DNA of 64,000 nucleotides from an uncultured Paracoccaceae bacterium (GTDB lineage: Bacteria > Pseudomonadota > Alphaproteobacteria > Rhodobacterales > Rhodobacteraceae). Shown here piece by piece: positions 26,797-41,013 of this stretch. The translations under genes were made by a program, and so were the position numbers. The DNA is taken from positions 186,001 to 250,000 of the forward strand of contig CANLVP010000001.1 of assembly GCA_947494675.1 (NCBI GenBank), read 5' to 3'. Positions within the stretch are counted from its first letter, which is position 1. Each line of letters starts with the position of its first letter. The notes below the pieces were generated by a model. The model had not been told where the DNA came from and did not search any database. It saw only the letters and a program-made list of their open reading frames with translations.

Positions 26797-27699
26797 CTAG
26801 ACCACCAAGATCAACATCAGGATCGAACACAGGATCAGCGCCAGCCCCTGCCATTCCCGGCGGCTGATCACCTCGCCAAAGACCAGCCACCCGGCCAAAA
26901 GCGACAGCAGCAACTCCGCCTGCCCCACCGCTTTGACCAGCGCCACGGTCTGCATGGTAAAGGCCACAAACCACCCCAGCGATCCCAACATGGAAAAGAT
27001 GCCCACCAGCCCGGCCACGCGCCAGGCCGATAAAACGCGGCCGATCTCACCCTTTTCGCGCCAGAGCAACCAAACCGCCATAATCGCGGTTTGGAATGCG
27101 GTGACACAGGCCAGCGTCACGATGGCGCGCAAAAACGTATCGCCCGACTCCAACCCGGTTGAGGCCCCGCGATAGGTCACGCCCGACACTGCAAATAGCA
27201 CACCTGACAGCAACCCCAGCCCGGCAGCCTTATTGAAAATCCGGGTGTGCCATGCGCCCGTGGCATCTGGTGGGTCGCTGAGCAACAGGACCCCCGCCAA
27301 ACCGATCACGATCGCGACCAAGGCCCCCAGGGTGACCCCCTCGCCCAGAACGATCAGCCCGACCAAGGCCGCCAGAAGGACTTCGGTCTTCTTGAACGTG
27401 ATTCCCACGGCAAAATTGCGCTGGGTGAAAATCGCCACCACGCACATGGTCGCGATGATCTGGCTGATGCCGCCCACAACCGCATACCCCCAAAAACTTG
27501 CGTCGAAACTGGGCCGCGCTTGGCCTGTCGACTGGGCGTAGATCACGGCAACCACAAAGACCAAAGGCGAGGAATAGATGAACCGCGCGAATGTGGACCC
27601 CGCCGTGGACAAAGTCGCGGTGCGCAGCATCTTTTGCAGCATGAAACGCAGCATCTGCGCACTTGCGGCGGCAAGGCTGACAAAGACCCAGGCCTCCAT
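26797..27699 (-). CDS. DMT-family (EamA) membrane transporter
   Basis: A 300-residue protein with about ten predicted helices in two EamA repeats (for example KKTEVLLAALVGLIVLGEGV and KAVGQAELLLSLLAGWLVFGE). The start ATG 27697-27699 shares one base with the SDR stop (TGATG), so it is coupled. Last gene of the carnitine operon, so it may import or export a related small metabolite (inference). Confidence 0.88.
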   Translation of the reverse strand: MEAWVFVSLAAASAQMLRFMLQKMLRTATLSTAGSTFARFIYSSPLVFVVAVIYAQSTGQARPSFDASFWGYAVVGGISQIIATMCVVAIFTQRNFAVGITFKKTEVLLAALVGLIVLGEGVTLGALVAIVIGLAGVLLLSDPPDATGAWHTRIFNKAAGLGLLSGVLFAVSGVTYRGASTGLESGDTFLRAIVTLACVTAFQTAIMAVWLLWREKGEIGRVLSAWRVAGLVGIFSMLGSLGWFVAFTMQTVALVKAVGQAELLLSLLAGWLVFGEVISRREWQGLALILCSILMLILVV

Positions 27700-28457
27700 C
27701 AGGGTTTCGGGTCCGGGTTTTCGGTATGCCCATCCACGGCAATCACCTGCCCGCTGACCCGCCGCGCGGCGTCCGACCCCAGAAAGACCGCCATATCGGC
27801 GATGTCTTCCGGGGCCACGAAGGTCCGCATCGATGTGCCCGCCGCATAGCCTGCGTAGACCGCATCCCGCGTCATGCCCTTGGCCGCGGCTTCCCGTTGC
27901 AAGACGCCTTCCATGCGCGGCCCTTCCACCGCGCCGGGACAGATCGCATTGGCCCGCACGCCATAAGGGCCCAGTTCCATCGCCGTGGTTTTCATCAACC
28001 CAATGATCCCCCATTTCGCCGCCGCATATGGCGCGCGATTGGGATAGCCGTAAATCCCTGCAGTGGAAGAGGTGTAGATGATCGCGCCACTGCCATGGGC
28101 CTGCATAATGGGGGCCGCATATTTCGTTGCCAGGAACGCGCCTTCAAGGTTCACGGAGACGCAGGCCCGCCAATCTTTCAGAGCGACATCGGCAACACCC
28201 GCCGTCGGCCCCGCGATGCCTGCATTGGCGCAAAGCACATCAAGCCCGCCCCATTGCGTCTTGATATCTTTGAACAAAGCGGCAAAGGCATCTTCATCGC
28301 TCGCATCCGCATGGGTGCGGTTCCATGCCGCCGGACAGGTATCGAGCGCGCCCAAATCCACATCCGTGACCCAGACATCATGGCCTGCCGCGGCAAACCC
28401 TTCGGCCATGGCAAAACCGATCCCTGATCCGCCCGCCGTGACCAGAACCCGGCTCAT
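27699..28457 (-). CDS. Short-chain dehydrogenase/reductase
   Basis: A 252-residue classical SDR. The nucleotide-binding loop is TAGGSGIG (Ala where Gly is usual), with NAGIAG, catalytic Ser in YTSSTAG and YAAAK. Fourth gene of the carnitine operon, with its ATG overlapping the cdhA stop (ATGA). The specific substrate is unknown; a hydroxy or keto compound arising in carnitine or betaine metabolism is a reasonable guess. Confidence 0.9.
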   Translation of the reverse strand: MSRVLVTAGGSGIGFAMAEGFAAAGHDVWVTDVDLGALDTCPAAWNRTHADASDEDAFAALFKDIKTQWGGLDVLCANAGIAGPTAGVADVALKDWRACVSVNLEGAFLATKYAAPIMQAHGSGAIIYTSSTAGIYGYPNRAPYAAAKWGIIGLMKTTAMELGPYGVRANAICPGAVEGPRMEGVLQREAAAKGMTRDAVYAGYAAGTSMRTFVAPEDIADMAVFLGSDAARRVSGQVIAVDGHTENPDPKP

Positions 28458-29911
28458 CTTTTGCCCACCGCCGCGCCAGCGCCTTCAGGCAGGGACAATC
28501 CCGCATGGGCCGTCGCCAGACGCGCCAAAGGCACGGCAACACGGTCATCGGGGACGGATGCTTTGCGGGTCTCAAGACTCACATGGATCAACATATGCTC
28601 CCCTGTCGCGAGCAGCCTATCGCCATCATACATCCAGTGGAACAGGTGCAGCTTTTTTCCCGCTCCTTCAACAACTTGACTATCGATCCTAATGCGGGTG
28701 CCCGCGTGGACCTCATCCAGATGTCGGATATGCGTCTCTGCCGTAAAATAGCTGCCACCGCTGGCGATATAATCCGCATCACATCCCACGAGCGCCATCA
28801 GCTTATCCGTCGCATCGCCAAAAGCCTGCAAATACCGCGCCTCGTTCATGTGGCCGTTGTAGTCCGTCCAATCCAACGGTATCGCCCGCGCCACGGTTGT
28901 CACGGGCGCGGTCAAATCTGCAATATCATCAAGGGTTTCGGGCAGGTTGTTCACCCGGCGGTCCTGTGCATTCAAAAGTTTGCCTGCCCCCCAATCCTGC
29001 GCCTTCAGACCGCATAAGATCGTCACCAGATTGTTGTCACGCACTCGCTCAAGTTCACGGATTGTGTGCATTCCCGATTGCGCGTCTGACTGATCCGCAA
29101 TCGCGTCAATCAGCTCATCGGTTAGCTCCGGCACGTCCATCAGTTTCGTCCACGGCCATTCAAGTGCGGGCCCAAACTGCGCCATAAAGTGCCGCATCCC
29201 CGCTTCGCCGCCGGCCACGCGGTAGGTTTCAAACAAGCCCATCTGCGCCCAGCGCAGGCCAAAGCCATAGCGGATCGCGTCGTCAATCTCTTCCGTGGTC
29301 GCGATGCCATCCTTGATCAGCCACAGCGCCTCGCGCCAGACCGCCTCAAGGAAGCGATCCGCGATATGGGCGTCAATCTCGGCCCGGACGCGCAAGGGGT
29401 GCATCCCCAGACCAGTCAGAATATCAGCGGCCTTATCCACCATGTCGGGCGGGTTCTTGTCCGTCGCCACAAGCTCCACCAATGGCAACAGATAGACCGG
29501 GTTGAACGGATGCGTGACCATGATCTGGTTAGGGCGCGTCGCGCAATCCTGCAACTCACTGGGTTTAAAGCCAGAGGTCGACGACCCGATCACCGCCCCC
29601 GGATCACAGGCCGCCTGCAAGGCCTGATAGACTTTGCGCTTGAGCTCCAACCGCTCTGGCACGCTTTCCTGAATCCAGGCCGCACCTTCCACAGCCTCAG
29701 ACATCGTCTCGTGAAACGTCAGCGCCCCCTCGGCAGGCAAGTCAACGTCCGACAAACCCGGCAGGGACCGTCGGGCGTTGTCCAAAACCTCACCAATCTT
29801 GCGCTGCGCCTCAGGATCAGGGTCAAACACCCGTACATCCCAGCCCATCAACAGGAACCGCGCGGCCCAACCACCGCCAATCACGCCACCGCCGATAATT
29901 GCTGCTATCAT
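28454..29911 (-). CDS. cdhA: L-carnitine 3-dehydrogenase fused to betainyl-CoA thioesterase
   Basis: A 485-residue bifunctional enzyme. Residues 1-~320 are a 3-hydroxyacyl-CoA-dehydrogenase-like domain, with Rossmann motif GGGVIGGGWA, HPFNPVYLLPLVE (134-146), and SSTSGFKPSEL. It oxidises carnitine to 3-dehydrocarnitine with NAD+. Residues ~335-470 are a hotdog thioesterase with LDWTDYNGHMNEARY (347-361), fitting the betainyl-CoA thioesterase found fused to CdhA in many alphaproteobacteria. The two activities bracket the cleavage enzyme encoded upstream. ATGA overlaps on both sides show tight coupling. Confidence 0.92.
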   Translation of the reverse strand: MIAAIIGGGVIGGGWAARFLLMGWDVRVFDPDPEAQRKIGEVLDNARRSLPGLSDVDLPAEGALTFHETMSEAVEGAAWIQESVPERLELKRKVYQALQAACDPGAVIGSSTSGFKPSELQDCATRPNQIMVTHPFNPVYLLPLVELVATDKNPPDMVDKAADILTGLGMHPLRVRAEIDAHIADRFLEAVWREALWLIKDGIATTEEIDDAIRYGFGLRWAQMGLFETYRVAGGEAGMRHFMAQFGPALEWPWTKLMDVPELTDELIDAIADQSDAQSGMHTIRELERVRDNNLVTILCGLKAQDWGAGKLLNAQDRRVNNLPETLDDIADLTAPVTTVARAIPLDWTDYNGHMNEARYLQAFGDATDKLMALVGCDADYIASGGSYFTAETHIRHLDEVHAGTRIRIDSQVVEGAGKKLHLFHWMYDGDRLLATGEHMLIHVSLETRKASVPDDRVAVPLARLATAHAGLSLPEGAGAAVGKR

Positions 29912-30450
29912 CCTTGCACCTCAACCAAACGCGTCAAGTCATACCCATTGAAATCAAGCACTTCACGGGCGGCTTTCAACCGATCCTCCGGGATCTCCGG
30001 CTCTCTGTTCAAGATCCAACCCGAGCGTCCATTCGGCGCACCAACCACGGCCGTGCGATAGCTTTCGTCGGTCCACAGCACCCAGTAGTCCGCGGCGCCA
30101 AAAGGCACGCTGGGGAAGGACACTTCCAACCGTCCCGGTCCCACGATTTCTGCCGTGCCCTCGATCACAGACCGCACCGCGCCATCCGCACCACGACAAG
30201 TGTTGCGCACCGAAATCCGCCCATCGGGCAAGGCCCCATATTCCGCCGTCACCCCCCGGCACCCGGCCTCAAACGGGACGGGGTAGCGCGCCACCTCGTA
30301 CCATGTGCCCAGATACTTCGCCGGTTCAAACAAGGCCTTAGAGGCGATTGGCACATCCGTATCGCGATAGACCTCAAACAAGCCACCAACCTCTTCACCC
30401 GGCTCCGCCCCGCAGGCCGCCAGCAACATCAGCGCGGCAAGCCGCTTCAT
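29908..30450 (-). CDS. Lipocalin-family lipoprotein (Blc-like)
   Basis: A 180-residue protein with a lipobox-type signal (LMLLAAC, Cys13), so probably lipid-anchored in the envelope. The lipocalin signature is [11 protein letters not shown], and the late conserved Arg/Trp segments are [12 protein letters not shown]. Blc-type lipocalins bind fatty acids or lysophospholipids. It sits between cdhC and cdhA with four-base overlaps on both sides, so it is co-translated with carnitine degradation. A role in handling acyl chains from acylcarnitines or membrane lipids is speculative. Confidence 0.9.
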
Positions 30451-31355
30451 TGCGGGGCCTGCTTGGTCAGACCCAGCTTTTTGCGCACTTCATCGGGGCC
30501 AATCACCCGCGCCCCAAGGTTTTCGATGATGCCCACCGCACGCTCCACCAGTTGCGCATTGGTCGCCAGCACGCCCTTGTCCAGCATCAGGTTATCTTCC
30601 AACCCGACGCGCACATTGCCCCCCGCCAGAACCGAGGCCGCGACATAGGGCATCTGACTGCGCCCCAGCCCAAAGGCGCTGAATGTCCAGTCATCGGGGA
30701 CGTTGTTCACCATTGCCATGAAGGTGTTCAGATCATCCGGCGCGCCCCACGGCACCCCCATACACAGCTGCACCAGCGCACCGGGCTCCAGCACGCCGTC
30801 TTTCACCAGCTGCTTGGCATACCACAAATGCCCAGTATCAAAGGCCTCAATCTCGGGCTTCACCCCAAGTTCCGTCATCATCCGCCCCATCGCCGTCAGC
30901 ATGCCGGGCGTATTGGTCATCACGTAATCGGCTTCGGCGAAATTCATCGTGCCGCAATCCAGCGTGCAAATCTCGGGCCGACATTCTGCCACATGGGCCA
31001 CCCGTTCGGTCGCCCCCACCATATCGGTGCCCGCCACCGTGGGCAGCGGCGTCTCAACCCCGCCAAAGACCATGTCCCCGCCCATGCCTGCGGTCAGGTT
31101 CAAGACCACATCCACCTCGGCCGCACGAATGCGCTCCGTCACCTCACGATAAAGTTCCAACCGGCGCGAAGGCGCACCGCTTTCAGGGTCGCGCACATGG
31201 CAATGCACAACCGCCGCGCCCGCCTTGGCCGCATCAATCGCGCTTTCGGCAATCTGCTGCGGGCTGCGCGGCACATGCGGGCTGCGATCCTGCGTGCTGC
31301 CCGACCCGGTCACGGCACAGGTCACAAAGACCTCTCTATTCATTTGCAACGGCAT
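30447..31355 (-). CDS. cdhC: 3-dehydrocarnitine:acetyl-CoA trimethylamine transferase (BKACE, DUF849)
   Basis: A 302-residue beta-keto-acid cleavage enzyme. It condenses 3-dehydrocarnitine with acetyl-CoA, giving acetoacetate and betainyl-CoA. The start ATG 31353-31355 is supported by AGAGGG six bases upstream; a 29-residue upstream extension lacks a site. BKACE features seen are [19 protein letters not shown] (zinc His pair), the EAFDTGHLW region and [11 protein letters not shown]. The assignment to the carnitine branch rests on the neighbouring cdhA fusion. First gene of the five-gene operon. Confidence 0.92.
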
Positions 31356-31369
31356 TTGGACCCTCTCTG

Positions 31370-31440
31370 TTTTGCGCGACGTTGTGTGATTCTGTGCCCC
31401 AAGACAAGCCACGTTGACAGGCACGCAACTTTTGCGCGAC
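31370..31440. promoter_or_regulatory. Divergent control region with an 11-bp direct repeat
   Basis: TTTTGCGCGAC occurs exactly at 31370-31380 and 31430-31440, 60 bases apart. One copy lies just upstream of the cdhC ribosome site and the other just upstream of the leader peptide of the rightward unit. A TTGACA at 31414-31419 could be a -35 for the rightward unit, but no good -10 is seen. The spacing and position suggest a binding site for a regulator shared by the two divergent units (inference). Confidence 0.5.
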
Positions 31441-31448
31441 AAGGGCCC

Positions 31449-31499
31449 ATGACATCAGCAATGCACATCGCGACCCGTTACTTTACCCGGCCTCATTAG
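31449..31499 (+). CDS. 16-residue leader peptide upstream of a GNAT acetyltransferase
   Basis: ATG 31449 to TAG 31497-31499 encodes [16 protein letters not shown]. An AAGGG five bases upstream of the first ATG is a proper ribosome site. The stop codon touches the first of three complementary GC-rich segments leading to a terminator. Codons are rich in His, Arg, Tyr, Phe and Pro. It is too short for ordinary gene calling; I read it as a regulatory uORF. The HI...R...H spacing distantly recalls the SpeFL polyamine/ornithine leader peptides of enterobacteria, but I cannot align them. Confidence 0.6.
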
Positions 31500-31554
31500 G
31501 CGGCGGGTGTTGATGATATTGACGTGACCCAAGCCGCCGCAAGGCGGCTTTTTT
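31499..31554 (+). terminator. Candidate attenuator: intrinsic terminator with competing upstream segment
   Basis: The terminator stem is AAGCCGCC (31531-31538), loop GCAA, GGCGGCTT (31543-31550), running into T31549-31554. Upstream, GGCGGC at 31499-31504 can pair with the same GCCGCC and prevent the terminator. A further hairpin (ACCCG..GCC with GGC..CGGGT, about 31484-31508) could in turn hide that segment. This 1:2 / 2:3 layout directly after a leader peptide is the classical attenuator design. Confidence 0.7.
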
Positions 31555-31591
31555 GTTGGGCGGTCTTGTGGCCCAACCCAAGGACAAACCG

Positions 31592-32050
31592 ATGACGACG
31601 ATCACCCCCGCCCGCCCCGCTGACCTGCCAGAGATTTTGCGCATGGTCCGCGCCCTCTCTGCCTTCCACGGCGACACCGCCAAGGTCACATTGGAACAAT
31701 TGCAAAGCTTCTTCTTCGATACAGGCGCGCCCGCCTCGGCCCTTTTGGCATGGGACGGCGACACCGTGATCGGCTACGCCGGGCTCTTGCCGCATCTGCG
31801 CCTGCACTCGGGTGGCAAGACACTCGACGTGCAACACCTCTACATCGTGGAAACCCACCGCGGCCGCGGTGTGGGCCGGGCGCTGATCGCCGCCGCGAGG
31901 GAACTGGCCGATAAGACTGGCTGTTTTCGCCTGACCATCGGCACCGACCCCGACAACACTGCCGCCCAAGCCGCCTACCGCGCCATGGGCTGGGATGATA
32001 TCACCGGTGCCGGTCCCCGCTTCCAGATGCTGCTGGCAGAGACGCCCTGA
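31592..32050 (+). CDS. GNAT N-acetyltransferase, possibly diamine/polyamine type
   Basis: A 152-residue GNAT. The ATG at 31592 has AAGGA nine bases upstream. The acetyl-CoA motif A is VETHRGRGVGRALI. The N-terminal part (DLPEILRMVRALSAFHGD ... LEQLQSFFFD) resembles the spermidine/spermine acetyltransferase-like subgroup more than ribosomal-protein acetyltransferases; this is by eye only. It follows the leader peptide and attenuator, and is divergent from the carnitine operon. Confidence 0.85.
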   Translation: MTTITPARPADLPEILRMVRALSAFHGDTAKVTLEQLQSFFFDTGAPASALLAWDGDTVIGYAGLLPHLRLHSGGKTLDVQHLYIVETHRGRGVGRALIAAARELADKTGCFRLTIGTDPDNTAAQAAYRAMGWDDITGAGPRFQMLLAETP

Positions 32051-32190: not shown

Positions 32191-33234
32191 TTAATAGGGC
32201 ATCGGGTTGGCGCGGTGTGCGGCGGTAATATCACTTAGAATCGCATCAGACAGGACCAGATCATCCCCCACCAGCAGATGCGCCAATTGCGCTTGGGTGG
32301 TGGTCCCAAAAATCGCGGAGATCGGGAAAGGCCGCGTGCGCTGCCAGGCCATCGCCATATGCGCGGGGTCCAGCCCGTGCTTTTGCGCGATATCCACATA
32401 GACCTGCGTCACCGGCAAGGTGCGCGGTGTCATCCGCCCCCCCAGTTCCGGCCCGATTGACATGCGGCTGCCCTCGGGCACCGCACCGCCCTGATATTTG
32501 CCCGTCAGCAACCCACAGGCCAAAGGCGAAAACGACAAAAGCGTGATGTCTTCGTTCACCGCCATCTCCGCCATATCGGTGTCATAAAGCCGGCACAGCA
32601 GCGAATATTCGTTCTGGACAGAGGCCATGCGCGGCAGCCCCATCTCCTCGGCGATCCGGCACCATTGCGTCATGCCCCAAGCGGATTCGTTGGACATACC
32701 GATGGCGCGAATCTTGCCTGCCTTCACCGCATCGCCCAGCGCACCCAGCACCTCGGCCATGTGATCCATCGTCTCAGCCCGGTTTTGCTTGCTTGGGTCA
32801 TAGGTCCAATTCTGCCGGAACATGTAAGACCCGCGCATCGGCCAATGCATCTGGTAAAGGTCTATGTAGTCGGTCTTGAGCTTTTTGAGCGAGAAATCAA
32901 TCGCTTCGGGGATGACCTTACCGTCATACCCGGCCCCGCCACGCACCCAACCGGGATTGTCGCCGCTGACCTTTGTGGCGATCACCACCTCGTCCCGCCG
33001 CCCGGTCTTTTCCAGCCACTCGCCAATCACCCGCTCGGAGTTACCCGCCGTCTCGGCGCTCACCGGGTTCACGGGATACATCTCTGCGGTGTCCAGAAAG
33101 TTGATCCCGGCCTCCAGCGCCATATCAATCTGGGCATGGGCATCATCCTGGCCGGTCTGATTGCCAAAGGTCATCGTGCCAAGGCACCAGTCAGAGACCT
33201 GAATGTCTGTGCGGCCAAGGGGGATCATTTTCAT
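32191..33234 (-). CDS. Aldo/keto reductase (Tas-like)
   Basis: A 347-residue NADPH-dependent aldo/keto reductase. The catalytic tetrad region is visible: FLDTAEMYP (Asp, Tyr), Lys in VVIATKVSG, His in YQMHWPM. The insertion with YMFRQNWTYDPSKQ and the C-terminal FPISAIFGTTT match the Tas-like subgroup. Substrate unknown. Monocistronic, ending at repeat copy B. Confidence 0.93.
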   Translation of the reverse strand: MKMIPLGRTDIQVSDWCLGTMTFGNQTGQDDAHAQIDMALEAGINFLDTAEMYPVNPVSAETAGNSERVIGEWLEKTGRRDEVVIATKVSGDNPGWVRGGAGYDGKVIPEAIDFSLKKLKTDYIDLYQMHWPMRGSYMFRQNWTYDPSKQNRAETMDHMAEVLGALGDAVKAGKIRAIGMSNESAWGMTQWCRIAEEMGLPRMASVQNEYSLLCRLYDTDMAEMAVNEDITLLSFSPLACGLLTGKYQGGAVPEGSRMSIGPELGGRMTPRTLPVTQVYVDIAQKHGLDPAHMAMAWQRTRPFPISAIFGTTTQAQLAHLLVGDDLVLSDAILSDITAAHRANPMPY

Positions 33235-40298: not shown

Positions 40299-40384
40299 TG
40301 GTGCCCCCGGCCGGACTCGAACCGGCACGGGCTTACGCCCAAGAGATTTTAAGTCTCCAGTGTCTACCATTCCACCACGGGGGC
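40299..40384 (-). tRNA. tRNA-Leu (anticodon TAA)
   Basis: On the minus strand the acceptor GCCCCCG pairs with CGGGGGC, the discriminator is A and CCA is encoded. The anticodon loop sequence ACTTAAAAT gives TAA. There is a long variable arm (TTGGGCGTAAGCCC), and the T-loop is TTCGAGTC. It is 86 bases with CCA. Confidence 0.96.
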
Positions 40385-40437: not shown

Positions 40438-40977
40438 CTAAATGTCGGTGCCGGGGTCTTCGGTGATCAGCGCCCGTTCGTTCAGCCACGGGTTCAAGGC
40501 GACCGCCGCCTTGAGCTGCGCTTGTGCCTCATCTGCACGGCCCAATCCCAAAAGGGTCAGCCCCCGCCCGGCCATCGCGGCAATGTGGTTTGGACTGATC
40601 TCAAGCGTGCGGTCCAGATCAACCAAAGCCGCCGCAAAATCCTGCTGGAGATAGCTGGCAAAGGCACGCTGGTTGTATCCTTCGGCATAATCCGGGCAAT
40701 AGGCCACCAGTTCATCCAGCGTCTCATAAGATCGCGAGAGCTGTCCCGCGGCCAAAAGCGCCATACCGCTGTCTAGCAACCGCTGCGCCCGCGCATCCGG
40801 CGCATCCGTCCAGAGCGCCCAAAGCTGATCGCTTAACACCCGCGCCTCGCCCGCTCCGCGGGAGGCTTGCAACTCTGTCACGATCTCCGCCAATTGCACG
40901 GTGTGATCAGGGGCGGCAGGACATTCCTGTGCCGCCAGCGGTGACGCGAAAAGACAAAAGGCGATGACGTATCTCAT
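40438..40977 (-). CDS. Periplasmic tetratricopeptide-repeat protein
   Basis: A 179-residue protein from ATG 40975-40977 (another start lies nine bases upstream). The signal peptide is about 1-16 (FCLFASPLAAQ). Two to three TPR helices pairs are visible: GYNQRAFASYLQQDFAAALVD, LEISPNHIAAMAGRGLTLLG and ADEAQAQLKAAVALNP. Likely a protein-interaction scaffold; partner unknown. Confidence 0.85.
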   Translation of the reverse strand: MRYVIAFCLFASPLAAQECPAAPDHTVQLAEIVTELQASRGAGEARVLSDQLWALWTDAPDARAQRLLDSGMALLAAGQLSRSYETLDELVAYCPDYAEGYNQRAFASYLQQDFAAALVDLDRTLEISPNHIAAMAGRGLTLLGLGRADEAQAQLKAAVALNPWLNERALITEDPGTDI

Positions 40978-41013
40978 GCACCCCAAACTGGCGCATCCAC
41001 CGCTTGGGTCAAG

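Follow-up and report, generated by a model that had tools for sequence, protein, structure and literature searches.

The short open reading frame (ORF) in front of a GNAT acetyltransferase gene in the 64,000-nt stretch of DNA analysed here (the window) is very probably the leader of a four-segment, ribosome-mediated transcription attenuator, which would read a Tyr codon, and with it charged tRNA-Tyr, and would control the GNAT gene. The leader, its promoter spacing, its Tyr codon and its competing stems are conserved, and the same scaffold precedes genes of tyrosine and tryptophan metabolism with matching codons. The signal suggested by these sequences is most likely tyrosine shortage, which is unexpected for a gene of the GNAT type. 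The features of the locus are as follows:

31414-31419, forward strand: TTGACA, a -35-like hexamer read from the sequence, 35 nt upstream of the leader ATG
31449-31499, forward strand: leader ORF of 16 codons, ATG at 31449, stop codon TAG, putatively on a leaderless transcript
31479-31481, forward strand: candidate control codon, Tyr (TAC), separated from the stop codon by five codons
31483-31492, forward strand: segment 1, within the last leader codons, partner of segment 2 (1:2 duplex, -14.2 kcal/mol)
31498-31509, forward strand: segment 2, beginning at the stop codon, partner of segment 1 or segment 3 (2:3 duplex, -18.6 kcal/mol)
31527-31538, forward strand: segment 3, of which 31531-31538 is the 5' arm of the terminator
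31543-31554, forward strand: segment 4 (31543-31550) and six T (31549-31554), forming an intrinsic terminator with segment 3 (hairpin, -15.0 kcal/mol)
31531-31554, forward strand: the whole intrinsic terminator, from the terminator scan
31556-31578, forward strand: second stem-loop, GTTGGGC/GCCCAAC, in the gap between terminator and gene, its stem without base-for-base conservation
31580-31584, forward strand: Shine-Dalgarno sequence AAGGA of the GNAT gene, read from the sequence
31592-32050, forward strand: GNAT acetyltransferase of 152 aa, ATG at 31592, resembling SSAT/thialysine acetyltransferases (Pfam, PDB profile search and AlphaFold model)

The original prediction had described translation-controlled attenuation of the GNAT gene by a leader peptide and three GC segments. 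Its coordinates for the ORF, the GC segments (GGCGGC at 31499-31504, GCCGCC at 31533-31538 and GGCGGC at 31543-31548), the six-T terminator and the GNAT start were all verified in the sequence, and attenuation itself was supported by the conserved leader, Tyr codon and competing stems. The three segment positions stood; their number did not, as there are four segments, segment 1 at 31483-31492 having been overlooked inside the last leader codons. Likewise, the ORF was correctly placed from 31449 and the peptide was quoted from the second in-frame ATG. The key feature that had been overlooked was the Tyr codon at 31479-31481.

The transcription start probably coincides with the leader ATG or lies beside it, because the distance from promoter to ATG is fixed; a -10 element is likewise predicted. 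In that case no ribosome site would lie ahead of the leader, and the good ribosome site previously assigned to it falls away, as the 35-nt TTGACA spacing makes probable. Upstream of the locus lies a BKACE family gene (Pfam; 30447-31352) that points away from the GNAT gene, and downstream a convergent aldo/keto reductase gene (Pfam; 32191-33234); the GNAT gene is therefore probably transcribed as a single gene. The BKACE (beta-keto acid cleavage enzyme) gene belongs to a minus-strand cluster at 26800-31352, in which only the BKACE label comes from Pfam; we take the other members to include a dehydrogenase-thioesterase fusion and an SDR, and the cluster to resemble one for carnitine breakdown.

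Single-sequence statistics are by themselves no proof of the element; the proof is given by conservation. The terminator scan of the window found two sites against 1.8 expected in shuffles, and the leader RNA folded barely better than shuffles (z -1.42). Rfam models, T-box and riboswitches included, gave no family at its gathering score over the leader and two tRNA matches in the whole window. These are a tRNA-Leu (anticodon TAA, 40299-40384) and a tRNA-Gly (anticodon TCC, 1555-1628), both on the minus strand. Below threshold there were four Rfam matches, the top one being RcsR1 (RF02552) at 18.5 bits (E 0.15), where the gathering score is 60.

Within the genus, the leader was found in all six genomes, the window's own genome counted. 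The motif Y-F-T-x-P, the stop codon and the terminator were kept in all of them, while the start of the peptide diverged: MKRMITAQTIYFTCPI is the leader peptide of one genome, and another peptide is common to two genomes. The pattern HI..R...P-H, whose conservation had been proposed as a check, was lost even at this distance. Type-I DAHP synthase was found in none of the six genomes, in a search run without a positive control.

In the family, a profile (A2) built from 11 rows, namely the window GNAT and ten GNATs where the leader had already been seen, gave 48 GNAT matches in 47 of 394 genomes. Leaders were then called by a rule blind to Tyr: an ORF of 9-26 codons starting with ATG or GTG, with a TTGACA-like hexamer (at least 5/6 positions, beginning with TTG) 34-38 nt upstream. 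For one partial match (L047) the start was shifted 150 nt upstream. Such a leader precedes 27 of the 48 GNATs where about one is expected, a biased rate since the profile rows had leaders and the spacing range was picked after the spacing of known leaders had been seen. The background, from the rest of the same loci, was 20 ORFs over 255,456 nt, or 0.022 per 280 nt. Tyr was present in 26 of the 27 leaders and in three peptides encoded by the 20 background ORFs. When the GNATs that had served as the 11 profile rows are excluded, a leader precedes 16 of 37 GNATs, with Tyr in 15 of the 16. Exactly five codons separate Tyr from the stop codon in 21 of the 26 Tyr-containing leaders. The sole leader without Tyr (L087) reads VFTACT, 19 of the 27 leaders have one Tyr codon and seven have two or three. 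Among the 21 GNATs without a mechanically called leader, seven have one by eye (sought with Tyr in mind) and 14 have none.

An order-wide search added 15 new loci, of which 14 were scanned, the genus member L233 being excluded. A leader was found in 12 of the 14 and Tyr in all 12; in 11, Tyr is separated from the stop codon by five or four codons. The hexamer spacing was 35 or 36 nt in 26 of the 27 family leaders and 35-37 nt in all 12 of these further leaders. Examples from named species are a GNAT on pSymB of Sinorhizobium meliloti Ak57 (leader MIKNAPISSVYFWLFR, TTGACA-to-ATG distance 34 nt) and one on a plasmid of Paracoccus marcusii (leader MCMNAASIVNYYRRLN, 35 nt). The linkage of leader and GNAT persists across distant genera though the spacer and peptide sequences diverge. 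In the named-genome collection there were two distant relatives (33 and 38% identity); viral contigs held no relative, and PADLOC defence families gave no match.

Segments 1:2 and 2:3 covary. In 22 leaders with U-tract terminators, the arms were permuted among leaders 5000 times: own 1:2 pairing was -13.3 against -10.8 for permuted arms, with no permutation as low, and own 2:3 pairing was -13.0 against -11.8, with six permutations as low (62 of 5000 when the genus rows L011, L012 and L013 were left out). The original prediction was to be abandoned if ORF or competing stems were unconserved in relatives; the outcome favours the element.

Folding of the 3' part outside the cover of the ribosome was used to measure the sequestration of segment 3 in the same 22 leaders. 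A ribosome placed at the usual Tyr position gave a mean probability of 0.78, one placed at the stop codon 0.30, and RNA free of ribosomes 0.39; the Tyr place was fixed at the sixth codon before the stop in all leaders, five of which have Tyr one or two codons off. In 21 of the 22 leaders, a ribosome at the Tyr place gave more sequestration than one at the stop codon (L043 was reversed, L077 nearly equal). A ribosome stalled a few codons upstream of Tyr had the same effect on segment 3. Against shuffled spacers, none of 50 shuffles was as high in only five of the 22 leaders. Even for a ribosome positioned immediately ahead of the window's Tyr codon, the terminator beats the antiterminator at equilibrium; therefore, the switch must be kinetic and decided during transcription, which is also how known attenuators work.

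A hairpin with a U-tract was present in 21 of 35 tabulated leaders and 14 had no clear U-tract. The leaders of tyrA, as far as they were read, have a hairpin without a U-tract. Leaders of this type with hairpins lacking a U-tract are L033, L062, L073, L079, L085, L125-L130, L132 and L133.

The regions after the terminator folded better than shuffles in 29 loci (mean z -1.87; 20 of 29 below -1), and the Shine-Dalgarno sequence was paired with a probability of 0.65 compared to 0.50 in shuffles, the window itself having 0.23; in this set the start of L134 was wrong, the region of L043 overran its start, and L035-L037 were excluded. In a test for a Shine-Dalgarno hairpin, 14 of 42 loci were matched by no more than 10 of 100 shuffles; some starts in this set were misplaced (L012 and L134 among them), and L013 and L015 were excluded. 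The 3' arm of the second stem-loop is often the Shine-Dalgarno sequence (e.g., L066, L074, L083, L094). The second stem-loop is a possible translational layer; it is not evident in the window itself, hence no claim is made for it.

The mechanism proposed for the GNAT leader extends these observations to a predicted transcription start, stall, signal, switch and direction, and to any benefit of the GNAT. The transcript would begin at or beside the leader ATG. When charged tRNA-Tyr is scarce, the ribosome would stall with the Tyr codon in its A site and cover segment 1; segment 2, thus freed, would pair with segment 3 once this is transcribed, no terminator would form and the GNAT gene would be transcribed. 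When tRNA-Tyr is charged, the ribosome would reach the stop codon and cover segments 1 and 2, segments 3 and 4 would pair, and transcription would end about 38 nt upstream of the GNAT start. In the absence of translation, 1:2 could form and the terminator would be favoured. Neighbouring Phe, Trp or extra Tyr codons may add a response to other aromatic amino acids. Several points weigh against this mechanism: most leaders carry the single Tyr codon noted above (19/27), where textbook attenuators have several; some GNATs lack a leader even by eye (14/48) or, for L087, lack Tyr in it; and the missing U-tracts, the shuffled-spacer result, the equal effect of stalls at many other upstream codons and the leaderless main tyrS genes (below) count on the same side.

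Using a covariance model (R1) with the terminator as its sole structure, the same scaffold was sought independently of GNAT genes. R1 was built only from GNAT leaders, 21 with clear terminators out of the 35 tabulated (29 from the mechanical listing and six by eye), and was run on 149 family genomes and 289 class genomes. R1 was unspecific at weak scores, with some match at E 0.1 in 123 of the 149 family genomes, many of them to the terminator only; in the class, 18 of 289 genomes had a match at E 1e-4. In total, 26 loci were read: 12 family loci besides L095-L101 and L108, which are GNAT places already known, and a second set of 13 class loci and one locus from a lax search of the genus. Of the downstream proteins, nine were checked with Pfam and L134 with a tyrS model; the other names were given by eye. 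The lax genus search, run with relaxed filters for a second copy of the leader, found one strong full leader per genome (6/6); the remaining matches were weak, mostly terminator-only or short, with one weak match of 129 nt in G000:C4. L161, a lax genus match, was no leader on reading, and L117 and L118 (chance matches) and L144 were also read and were no leaders. Elsewhere in the window, R1 gave one further match, a weak one, at 40940-41013 (E 0.019).

Control codons differ according to the gene that follows. Prephenate dehydrogenase (tyrA) genes (L105, L107, L141) have leaders with AYYPLLT, VYYPLPR and VYYSLTT. Tryptophanyl-tRNA synthetase (trpS) genes in three alphaproteobacterial genomes (L104, L140, L143) have NWWRA, IWWRSF and RWWRS, with terminators present, and trpE (L150) has RRWWWRS. 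DAHP synthase genes (L103, L110, L122) have somewhat longer leaders with FWYFY, SFYWF or FWYFYY, and these Phe-Trp-Tyr leaders before type-I DAHP synthase suggest control by the aromatic amino acids as a group. A tyrosyl-tRNA synthetase gene (L134) has AVYFARLP, and a stand-alone small S4 domain resembling the C-terminus of TyrRS (L135, G661; Pfam S4 3.6e-7) has NAYFTSSK. The codons before tyrA, auxiliary tyrS, DAHP synthase, trpS and trpE thus all match their genes by sequence. Such an exchange of codons with gene identity reads as codon reading and not as peptide sensing.

Further R1 loci preceded GNATs: L111, L136-L139, and also L102 and L148, whose places the family search had already given (L148 being L072). 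L136-L139 belong to two further families of the class, and their GNATs have only remote similarity to that of the window (eight-sequence blastp comparison, E 1e-6 to 5e-5). Starting from the protein, nine short prephenate dehydrogenases were found in the 149 family genomes; a Tyr-Tyr leader precedes eight of them, and the ninth (L131) has a GTG ORF only, without Tyr. Upstream of tyrS, a Tyr leader was found for none of 50 sampled genes, whose upstream regions were taken from 108 genomes with tyrS, a 1500-nt flank being assumed for 30 loci; one region (L204) had a leader-like ORF without Tyr. The main tyrosyl-tRNA synthetase, as judged from these regions, is therefore normally outside such control. 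The tyrS of the window's own genome (L211) has no leader in front of it. Genome G606 has two TyrRS, 58% identical, with a leader on the second only (L134/L250).

A different way to read the Tyr codon is that the leader senses tRNA-Tyr modification (queuosine 34, ms2i6A37) or slow decoding of UAU, and that the GNAT answers iron, sulfur, queuosine or translation stress. This reading is improbable, but it is the strongest of the rivals. In the available part of PMC13326639, Q34 and (ms2)i6A37 are described as co-occurring uniquely in tRNA-Tyr. TAT is the preferred Tyr codon of the leaders (42 of 52, compared to 99 of 183 in the ORFs of the 48 GNATs; p=6.5e-4), and the codon after Tyr in 38 leaders encodes Phe, Trp, Tyr or Cys, all U-initial, in 32. 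That position is Arg in five leaders, however (and a stop in one), and Tyr-Tyr before tyrA and Trp runs before trpS and trpE fit charging. A general attenuator of translation speed or antibiotics, in which any slowing before the stop codon induces the GNAT and Tyr is incidental, is less probable still. Folding scans showed that stalls at many other upstream codons likewise free segment 2, and GNATs are common resistance enzymes, the window GNAT having weak matches to such families (NCBIfam); against this, Tyr occurs in nearly all leaders called without regard to it, 21 times at one exact place, whereas in the GNAT ORFs Tyr accounts for 0.026 of the codons.

The original prediction had favoured a nascent-chain arrest peptide responding to some small molecule, for instance a polyamine, ornithine or arginine, a reading that now seems very hard to sustain. 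It drew on the likeness of the GNAT to diamine/thialysine acetyltransferases and on the end of the ORF on a pairing segment, as in the arrest leaders TnaC and SpeFL. The residues preceding Tyr are without conservation across 39 leaders, though, and codon identity tracks the downstream gene, the scaffold carrying Trp, Phe-Trp-Tyr or Tyr-Tyr before matching genes. Arg codons are no constant feature of GNAT leaders, and the leader gives a polyamine, arginine or ornithine signal no support. Arrest and polyamine or arginine sensing were rejected as candidates, Tyr being the only conserved residue besides the stem-forming codons. Least probable of all is that the terminated leader RNA or its peptide is the main product and acts in trans, with GNAT control secondary. 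The accessible portions of PMC7298713 and PMC10117765 describe S. meliloti rnTrpL and peTrpL as acting in trans, the RNA starting at AUG, and the top sub-threshold Rfam match, RcsR1, has the same transcription position as rnTrpL in the part of PMC7143759 that was available. The GNAT linkage kept over distant genera, with diverging spacers and peptides, speaks against this reading; trans action on top of GNAT control may occur.

The preferred reading, attenuation by tyrosine charging, leaves two families of ideas on what the GNAT would be good for: a role under tyrosine shortage, or detoxification of something that blocks tyrosine charging. We know of no place for acetyltransferases of this kind in tyrosine metabolism. 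The protein matches the GNAT superfamily (PF00583, 8.7e-17, 61.9 bits against a gathering score of 20.7). The best match in a PDB profile search was 2bei, human SSAT2 (thialysine acetyltransferase; 1.8e-17), and Foldseek with the AlphaFold model (pLDDT 83.7, from a four-row alignment in which two rows are the window protein itself) placed 2fe7 and 2bei first. No curated NCBIfam threshold was reached, and the PaiA spermidine/spermine N-acetyltransferase model NF053587 gave 22.5 bits against a cut-off of 250. In sequence and predicted fold the GNAT thus resembles diamine/thialysine acetyltransferases; the polyamine acetyltransferase likeness proposed earlier holds to that extent, but not by the PaiA score.

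By analogy, and as a rather doubtful extension, the leader could serve an inducible defence by sensing the action of inhibitors or analogues on tyrosyl-tRNA synthetase; the product would be a GNAT able to acetylate the inhibitor or, in a different lineage, a spare TyrRS. Tyrosine attenuation would then have been coupled to GNATs more than once in alphaproteobacteria. An inhibitor would raise uncharged tRNA-Tyr, the ribosome would stall at the Tyr codon, and the GNAT or the spare TyrRS would be made. The spare TyrRS under a leader in G606, a single case, fits the detoxification idea. According to the available part of PMC7916415, MccE and RimL acetylate aminoacyl-adenylate inhibitors, and the tyrosine analogue SB-219383 has TyrRS as its target. 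On this idea the window GNAT would share with MccE and RimL a benefit that shows under synthetase inhibition; in sequence and fold, however, it is nearest to SSAT/thialysine acetyltransferases and 2fe7 among solved structures.

Proteobacterial attenuators of amino acid biosynthesis include the trp, phe, his, leu, ilv and thr types. The GNAT leader shares with them the four-segment logic and a codon-specific stalling, which is predicted here, and differs in its mostly single control codon and in a target that is a non-biosynthetic gene. In Streptomyces, an auxiliary, inhibitor-resistant TrpRS is reportedly controlled by an attenuator and linked to indolmycin. The auxiliary TyrRS of G606, with a leader that the main one lacks, is similar to this case, whereas the controlled gene of the window is an acetyltransferase. 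As far as PMC7298713, PMC10117765 and PMC7143759 were available, rnTrpL/peTrpL of S. meliloti (RcsR1, RF02552) is also alphaproteobacterial and also has mutually exclusive structures and a terminator, with a leaderless ORF such as is probable here; unlike the window leader, it reads Trp before trpE and not Tyr before a GNAT, and its Rfam model gives the window 18.5 bits where 60 are required. Titles and beginnings of abstracts, with few subscription journals, yielded no proteobacterial tyrosine-codon attenuator and none before such a GNAT, an absence that is unproven.

With this element, tyrosine would join the amino acids to which alphaproteobacterial attenuators respond, and a tyrosine signal would be tied to acetyltransferases, GNATs of different subfamilies, across three or more families of the class. 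Confirmation of the signal would provide a direct substrate clue for an uncharacterised group of GNATs and a reporter of TyrRS inhibition that is ready for use. It would also provide a scaffold with exchangeable codons (Tyr, Trp, mixed aromatic and apparently Arg) for the prediction of regulons.

Two other genes carried the scaffold. A SnoaL-like protein (L106 and L109; PF12680 was checked for L106) has leaders with TTYYRS or SSYYRRP and is a second unexpected candidate for a tyrosine regulon. In G408, the locus L142 (about 1535-1610 on the minus-strand count) has the promoter, leader and terminator of the scaffold with an Arg run, MLNLANRNRRRRSPAALARAR. The downstream ORF, which we take to be acetylornithine aminotransferase-like, makes L142 a possible arginine attenuator.
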